Below, one piece after another: positions 164-41,063 of a stretch of 41,063 nt of DNA. The translations under genes and the position numbers were made by a program. The stretch spans positions 1-41,063 of the IMG/VR virus record IMGVR_UViG_3300042691_031303; one strand, 5' to 3'. Every line of letters starts with the position of its first letter. Within the stretch, counting starts at the first letter, position 1. The notes beneath the pieces were generated by a model. It worked only from the letters and a program-made list of their open reading frames with translations. It made no database searches and had not been told where the DNA came from. Origin of the DNA: a virus.

Positions 164-298
164 CACCCCGGTGTGTACGTCTCCGTGTACGCGCGACCCC
201 GCAGCTGAGCGGATTGTGCTGCCTCGACGCAAGTCAGCGTGTGTCGGATCCGTGGGGAATCCCGTCAGAGCAACGGGCGTCAGGATGGGTGCACACGG

Positions 299-340
299 CT
301 GATAAGCGTGAGGTCGCAGGTTCAACTCCTGCCTGGCCCA
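299..340 (+). other. tRNA-Ile(GAU) 3'-half: attachment core
   Basis: The segment begins with the anticodon loop CTGATAA (anticodon GAT at 301-303). The 3' anticodon strand (306-310), variable loop, T-arm (stem 316-320/328-332, loop TTCAACT) and 3' acceptor strand CTGGCCC (333-339) follow, then discriminator A340. No CCA is encoded. The 5' half is missing: no GGGCCAG lies upstream at the right distance, and base 298 (G) does not pair with G306. It is therefore not a functional tRNA but the identity block that would restore a host tRNA-Ile gene on integration. Confidence 0.85.
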
Positions 341-353
341 CTTTCCGAAGTGG
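338..353. other. Short hairpin just after the tRNA fragment
   Basis: CCACTT, loop TCCG, AAGTGG forms a perfect 6-bp stem whose first bases overlap the tRNA acceptor end. It could be residual tRNA terminator sequence acquired from a host or an integrase or factor contact site. There is no T-run after it. Confidence 0.35.
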
Positions 354-535
354 AAGTAGCACCCGCAGTTCGCAGGACCTGCCGTACACGGCCCTATCAC
401 CCAGTGTACGCGCGGTGTACGCCCCAACGCTTGAGCTCGCCGTTCTTGCTTGCTCGCGTTGCTTGGACCCACGCATTCACAGGGTGCTGCACGATACACT
501 CGTGCGGCATCCTGTCAATGCTGGGTTTTTGGTGT

Positions 536-39872: not shown

Positions 39873-40200
39873 CGTCCACCTCCGGCGCGCGCCCCGAGCT
39901 CAGGGCCGTCTTCCGCGCGGCCACCAGCGCCGCCAGCATCGAGGCCTTCGCCAGCGCCTGCTCGGCCGGAGAGAGCCGCTCCCAGCGGAACAGCGAGGCC
40001 GTCTCGTAGTGGGCCTGCGCCGCGGCCTTGAGGGTGGGCATGGTGAGCAGCTGGGCCCAGCGCCGCTCCCAGCCCTGCACCTCCTCCCGGAGCGTTGCCA
40101 GCTCGTCAGCCATCTTCACGACGTTGTACGTGCCATGCGCGGTCGTGTGCTCCTCGAGCACCTCGCGCACCGCCTCCCGCAGCTCCGGCCGCGGCGTCAT
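39862..40200 (-). CDS. Helical protein of the replication operon
   Basis: This 112-residue alpha-helical protein reads RPELREAVREVLEEHTTAHG, DELATLREEVQGWERRWAQL and LSPAEQALAKASMLAALVAA. It overlaps the initiator by four bases (ATGA) and the loader candidate by 11. It could be a partner in replisome assembly. No family recognised. Confidence 0.5.
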   Translation of the reverse strand: MTPRPELREAVREVLEEHTTAHGTYNVVKMADELATLREEVQGWERRWAQLLTMPTLKAAAQAHYETASLFRWERLSPAEQALAKASMLAALVAARKTALSSGRAPEVDDAA

Positions 40201-40985
40201 GCGGCCCCCCGCGCCAGCTGGGCCTGCCGCTCCTCAGCCTCCAGTTCCGCGTAGACCTTCGCCCGCTCGTCGTCGCTCAACGTCCAGCGCTTCGAGGGGG
40301 GCGTGGTGCTCGCGCCCGGCCGCTCCATCGCCTGGGCCGCCTCATGCCTCCTGATGTAGCCCCGCACGCGCGAGGCGTTGAAGGCCTCCCCGTTCGCGGC
40401 CATGTCCATCAGCGCCAGCCCCAGCACCGTCTCGGGGACCGGCTTGCCGGTCGTCATCCCGCTGAGGATCGCCTGCAGGGCCGCATCAAGGGCTGCCGGA
40501 TTGCGAGAGGCATTGCGGTGCGCCAAATAGGCCAGCTGCATCTGCGTATTCGCAAAAACGACGAGCGCCGCTGTTGTCGTCGGTGTTGTAGGATCTTCTT
40601 TCTGGTCCTGTTCATATTGGTACTGTTTGGGTGCAATGGGTTGCACCGGGGTCGATGCACTGGGTTGCACGGGGGTGTATGCAGTGGATTGCACCGCGCC
40701 CTGCACCAGATCGTACCCAATGATGCGATACCCGTTGCTGGTGCATCGCCCGTTATCGTCGCTGCGACGCTCAACTTGGATAGCGCCGATCCCCTCCAAC
40801 GTGCGAAGGGCATACTGGACGGTGCGCTCGGAGAGCTGGAGGTCGTCCGCAAGGGCGCGCACTGACGGGAAGCTGTACCGCTCGGCGCTCGCGTACGTCG
40901 CGAGAGCAGTCAGCACGGCCTTGTCGGTCGTGGACAAGTCCGGATGCCGCAACCAGACCGTTGGAACTACCGCGAATCGGCTCAT
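40197..40985 (-). CDS. O-like replication initiator with internal origin
   Basis: This 262-residue protein has an N-terminal winged-helix DNA-binding domain (residues ~18-75: LSTTDKAVLTALATYAS, then YSFPSVRALADDLQLSERTV and a following recognition segment). This is typical of phage initiators such as lambda O-type proteins. The middle (residues ~98-120) has the duplicated TPVQPSASTPVQPIAP, encoded by the iteron DNA at 40632-40693. The C-terminal ~120 residues are helical and may recruit the helicase loader. ATG 40985 is near the window end; a longer frame extends into the terminal repeat but lacks support. Confidence 0.8.
   Translation of the reverse strand: MSRFAVVPTVWLRHPDLSTTDKAVLTALATYASAERYSFPSVRALADDLQLSERTVQYALRTLEGIGAIQVERRSDDNGRCTSNGYRIIGYDLVQGAVQSTAYTPVQPSASTPVQPIAPKQYQYEQDQKEDPTTPTTTAALVVFANTQMQLAYLAHRNASRNPAALDAALQAILSGMTTGKPVPETVLGLALMDMAANGEAFNASRVRGYIRRHEAAQAMERPGASTTPPSKRWTLSDDERAKVYAELEAEERQAQLARGAA
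40632..40693. other. ori: Iterons: candidate replication origin
   Basis: Three direct copies of TGCANTGGRTTGCA occur with 24-bp period: 40632-40645, 40656-40669 and 40680-40693. They lie inside the initiator coding region. Each copy is partly palindromic (TGCAA/TTGCA). An AT-richer stretch (about 40589-40625, containing GTTGTAGGATCTTCTTTC and TTCATATTGG) abuts the array and could be the melting region. The layout resembles lambda ori within gene O. Confidence 0.75.
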
Positions 40986-40994
40986 CAGCGAGAA

Positions 40995-41063
40995 CGCAGT
41001 GGCCCCCTGAAGTGCGGGTGGAGTCCACCACGGTCGCAAGGCGTTCCGGGTGGCACCGCACAA
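40995..41063. repeat. Direct terminal repeat, right copy
   Basis: Exact copy of bases 1-69. It lies just upstream (minus-strand sense) of the replication initiator start codon at 40985, in the presumed 5' leader of the replication operon. Confidence 0.95.

Follow-up and report, generated by a model that had tools for sequence, protein, structure and literature searches.

What is one half of a tRNA gene doing beside an integrase gene in a phage genome, and do the short repeats around it belong to the same device? This is the question raised by one end of the DNA analysed here, an IMG/VR virus record of 41,063 bp (hereafter the window, meaning the whole stretch) with a GC content of 69.7% and a 69-bp direct terminal repeat, from which we conclude that it is a phage genome with a circular map. 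The window matches families for head, portal, terminase, and internal virion protein and is thus a tailed phage. Two other phages are co-linear with it, namely G001 (39.4 kb, with a 103-bp terminal repeat) and G002 (39.7 kb), with identities to the window of 88-90% for the major head protein, 76-78% for the portal, and 73-78% for the terminase. One has to keep in mind that all the relatives compared for their integrase and attP are metagenomic contigs.

An earlier note, made from the letters alone, had read positions 299-340 of the plus strand as the 3' half of a tRNA-Ile(GAU) gene, from the anticodon loop to the discriminator, and this reading holds: the Rfam tRNA model matches 298-340 with 24.2 bits and its 5' end cut off, and blastn aligns this core with tRNA-Ile-like sequences at about 90% identity (E 2e-10). 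The core, CTGATAAGCGTGAGGTCGCAGGTTCAACTCCTGCCTGGCCCA, comprises the anticodon loop CTGATAA (299-305, with the anticodon GAT at 301-303), the 3' strand of the anticodon stem, read from the sequence as GCGTG (306-310), a perfect 5-bp T-stem (316-320 with 328-332), the 3' strand of the acceptor stem, CTGGCCC (333-339), and the discriminator A (340), all on the plus strand and without an encoded CCA; homologous cores are found in G001 and in a third contig, L080.

The earlier note took the 5' half to be absent and named a complete tRNA as the finding that would speak against it; ARAGORN finds no complete tRNA in the whole window. With the upstream bases included, the Rfam tRNA score over 277-340 is 29.8 bits against a cut-off of 29, and a partial 5' half at 277-298 was considered as a candidate. 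We dropped it and treat the 5' half as absent, since the D-arm is missing and the upstream pairing is equalled in 4.5% of shuffles of these bases, that is, at chance level. Around the loop, CACGG (294-298) and GCGTG (306-310) form an imperfect inverted repeat on the plus strand (294-310), read from the sequence, that may represent core-type half-sites; four of the five positions pair, a weak signal that 12% of shuffles equal. At the end of the tRNA half, we also read a perfect 6-bp hairpin, CCACTT-TCCG-AAGTGG (338-353, plus strand); once the phage has integrated, this hairpin would come right after the restored tRNA and could act in processing or termination.

The repeats are where the earlier note had placed them. 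Five exact copies of GTGTACG lie around the core, two upstream on the plus strand at 173-179 and 185-191 (-126 and -114 from the first base of the loop, a tandem pair spaced 12 bp apart) and two downstream on the same strand at 404-410 and 415-421 (+105 and +116, spaced 11 bp apart), these four being putative arm-type sites, while the fifth, at 383-389 (+84), is inverted, on the minus strand. Nothing equivalent to this copy was found in L080, so we are less sure of its role than of that of the tandem four. In bases 1-535, five copies compare with 0.14 expected and with a maximum of two in 3000 shuffles, and no 7-mer of any sequence reaches five copies with two tandem pairs in 4000 shuffles or in 400 other windows of the genome; the same repeat test found no copy of GTGTACG with one mismatch.

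The neighbouring gene, which the earlier note took to be the integrase, lies on the minus strand (536-1813), with an ATG at 1813 behind GGAGGG and a stop codon at 536-538, so that its 3' end faces the attP, 195 bp from stop codon to core. It encodes a protein of 425 aa that matches a PHROG integrase family (E 4e-9) and, below the curated cut-off, PF00589, and whose structure model aligns to XerD (Z 13.2) and to the catalytic core of lambda Int (Z 10.7). R248, K275, R367, W390, and Y400 do not vary among five relatives, all of which have a tyrosine (Y364) in place of the box II histidine. With its conserved catalytic residues and matching fold, this integrase belongs to the tyrosine recombinase family. 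Its core-binding and catalytic domains are preceded by an extra N-terminal domain (residues 1 to about 90), predicted with modest confidence to fold into three strands and a helix. This domain gave no Pfam match and no usable match in a fold search (best Z 2.7); it sits where an arm-binding domain is expected, which makes it a putative arm binder. No excisionase was identified in the window.

In our judgement, the region is with high probability an attP. The phage would be temperate, with a lambda-like tyrosine integrase that has a host tRNA-Ile(GAU) gene as its target and binds GTGTACG through its N-terminal domain. Inferred, in this model, are that the integrase binds the repeats, where exactly the strands cross over, that the phage integrates in the cell, and which host it uses. 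The N-terminal domain would bind the GTGTACG arm sites, two on the left and two or three on the right, while the core-binding and catalytic domains would work at short sequences on either side of the anticodon loop, so that the integrase bridges arm and core sites. The loop (299-305) is the probable overlap region, since identity between the window, G001, and L080 cores ends there on the left. Exchanging strands within it or right beside it would then join the 5' half of the host tRNA to the 3' half supplied by the phage; the lysogen would retain a functional tRNA-Ile, and the host 3' half, now displaced, would mark the other end of the prophage.

Such a reading calls for a look at related integrases. 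As a single query, the window integrase had no match in viral contigs, nor did it have one in phage records; searches of viral contigs with alignments returned G001, its copy G013 (L052), L053, L080, and L084. L080 is a 41.4-kb contig whose integrase is 50% identical to that of the window over its full length. Its tRNA-Ile half, CTGATAAGCGTGAGGTCGGTGGTTCAACTCCACCCAGGCCCA, lies 1.9 kb beyond the integrase gene, a distance that we counted against the attP reading, and is flanked by GGTTACG at -116, -105, +93, and +105 relative to the first loop base, in two tandem pairs with spacings of 11 and 12 bp, as in the window. In L084, the integrase is 42% identical, and the 3' half of a tRNA with a CAU anticodon follows just behind its gene; the repeats, TGTGACGATT, stand at -129, +137, and +147, the right pair inside the end of the integrase gene. 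The G001 integrase is 70% identical to that of the window, with a tRNA-Ile half directly against its gene, but it counts only 391 aa, has its own AGGAGG-ATG start, and lacks the N-terminal domain: a search with the window domain found nothing in G001 before residue 91. No repeat array flanks the G001 core.

We then scored flanking repeats by a unique rule, requiring one 7-mer on both sides of the centre in a single orientation with a tandem spacing of 10-12. The window and L080 each have four sites in two pairs, a pattern found at none of 2000 random centres in the window, and L084 has three sites in one pair, which arose at 40 of the 2000; thus, L084 alone is modest evidence, and the window and L080 are strong evidence. 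The attP reading is therefore supported by the comparison on two counts, as the three related integrases accompany tRNA 3' halves, with flanking same-orientation repeats of their own in L080 and L084, and as G001 lacks both the N-terminal domain and the repeats. The claim of the earlier note that this is an attP with a tRNA-Ile core and arm sites is supported by L080, L084, and G001.

Two observations on these loci are worth recording. Directly upstream of the L053 integrase, an HTH_17/MerR-like frame (L053:4420-4986) is a candidate excisionase; no such gene came to light next to the integrase of the window. L084 has, downstream of its integrase gene, a tandem repeat array with a 12-bp unit (L084:8069-8380).

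Could the tRNA half be the attP core and GTGTACG nevertheless be something other than an arm site, such as a repressor operator, an excisionase site, or a host-factor site? The inconclusive fold match of the N-terminal domain and the inverted copy at 383 leave some room for it, yet we hold this to be improbable, given that the window, L080, and L084 all have same-orientation repeats on either side of the core, comparably far from it and in the layout of known arm sites, that the layout stays constant while the motif varies from one relative to another, and that the repeats are absent in the very phage whose integrase has no N-terminal domain.

It is very unlikely, in turn, that we are looking at a phage tRNA gene, decayed or captured, without any role in integration and surrounded by unrelated regulatory sites. 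Phages frequently carry tRNA genes, and the Rfam score over 277-340 barely exceeds its cut-off, but the weak 5' pairing is within chance, and three related integrases lie near a tRNA 3' half that always starts at the anticodon loop. The cores themselves do not look decayed either: between any two of the three tRNA-Ile cores (window, G001, L080), 4-5 of the 42 bases differ, and none encodes CCA. All four differences between the window and G001 amount to two T-stem pairs changed on both sides; between the window and L080, compensated changes affect two T-stem pairs, and a single acceptor base differs, its pairing partner expected in the host half. Such compensated changes are not expected of decay; they make the tRNA halves resemble tRNA ends that still work, presumably suited to different hosts. 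Two contigs in which a PF00589 integrase was not found, G002 and G005 (the latter a fragment), had no such core, and the missing half in the integrase-less G002 likewise argues against a decayed gene. In the interval concerned, G002 (L049, 32.8-35.7 kb) and G005 (L050, 11.4-14.0 kb) carry a metallophosphoesterase gene and other genes instead of the integrase; these phages may be virulent sisters or users of another system.

A tRNA-dependent lysogeny of the Fionnbharth type, in which the host tRNA-Ile is disrupted on integration and a tRNA from the phage takes its place, shares with the window the tyrosine integrase, the arm sites (putative in the window), and a target overlapping a tRNA gene, but is hardly credible here, since the core there is short, at about 10 bp, the host tRNA is not rebuilt, and a phage tRNA of the same isotype is needed (PMC10865867), whereas the core of the window spans 42 bases up to the discriminator and the window has no complete tRNA.

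Returning to the attP reading, the site itself is of a known kind and is ordinary for that kind. The attP cores of the ordinary type, which include the 3' half of a tRNA, measure 30-45 bp (PMC10865867). In mycobacteriophages L5, CrimD, and Pixie (PMC3203893), the 3' part of a tRNA or tmRNA likewise forms the core, with pairs of arm sites on both sides; in Pixie, a left pair faces three right sites (PMC3203893), although in the window, one of the three right copies is inverted. These phages are unrelated to ours and have other arm sequences, and their attP sites are tied to known hosts, whereas that of the window comes without a host link. Phage lambda, too, has five arm sites for the N-terminal domain of its integrase and core-type sites for the C-terminal domains (PMC4880445), an assignment that is putative in the window, but, unlike the window, it does not target a tRNA gene (PMC10865867). 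No accessory-protein sites were identified in the window attP. In the unrelated Thermus virus IN93, an unannotated tRNA-Ile-like stretch also stands close behind the integrase stop codon, and its record has no attP annotation.

Beyond the site, the useful extras of this group are a pair of sister phages, one armed and one arm-less, and a set of related integrases with differing arm sequences. Arm-less phage integrases are known from the Brujita type, described as close to Xer (PMC8138268), and G001 resembles them in having neither an N-terminal domain nor arm repeats in its attP, unlike the window, where both are present. The G001 integrase is 70% identical to an armed one, which suggests a domain loss and not an Xer origin. 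The N-terminal domain is kept in the integrases of the window, L053, L080, and the bacterium Gemmatirosa; as the window and more distant relatives keep it, its loss in G001 appears to be the simpler reading, for one case only. The two sister phages belong to one group of close relatives and share one tRNA-Ile target, with an armed integrase and armed attP in the window and with both arm-less in G001. Whether a lambda-type system has here shed its arm-binding layer altogether by natural means, as opposed to G001 having a simple integrase derived from Xer, is, in our view, evenly balanced. The G001 integrase frame (L047:1939-3114) runs through its own attP core and ends RRWASEELNLGPHAYQTGDAKNSPH, so that integration would alter the C-terminus of the protein.

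For an otherwise unknown phage group, this attP points to a temperate way of life and predicts where the phage inserts. With related integrases that go with the arm sequences GTGTACGC, GGTTACGC, and TGTGACGATT, or with none, arm recognition and the loss of arm control become directly testable, and the compensated core changes suggest that the tRNA ends in these phages work and suit different hosts.

The host itself was sought in several ways. Neither the exact 42-mer of the core nor, in an alignment search, a relative of the integrase was found in genome contigs, a 27-mer was absent from viral contigs, and searches of both collections yielded no attL, attR, attB, or host tRNA gene; the absence of the 42-mer and of an integrase relative from genome contigs was not taken as disproof. 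With a relaxed core, viral contigs other than G001 and its copy did come up, six of them with one shared tRNA-Ile stretch and one of 618 kb with its own, which we rejected as complete genes. Among 72,556 plasmids, a relative of the L053 integrase exists in only one, Gemmatirosa kalamazoonensis plasmid 1 (33% identity, 2e-46), on which a matching core was not found; Gemmatimonadota are, thus, no more than a lead as hosts. The plasmid (NZ_CP007129.1; L067, L068-L070) carries three copies of the integrase relative, which may mark a multi-copy mobile element.

Finally, a structured element lies at positions 1-91 of the window on the minus strand, GGCCCCC..GGTGCC..GGACTCCACC..GGGGGCC, with an outer stem pairing 7-15 with 71-79, just upstream of a DnaD/HTH_36-like gene (40197-41063) and overlapping the 69-bp terminal repeat. 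It has no Rfam match and would seem to be a new element, either a leader RNA or a DNA hairpin. It is conserved in four related phages, where 11 of its 26 pairs are changed on both sides, and 93% of cells are paired versus 46-50% when the alignment is slid by one to three columns; this covarying element may be more novel than the attP.
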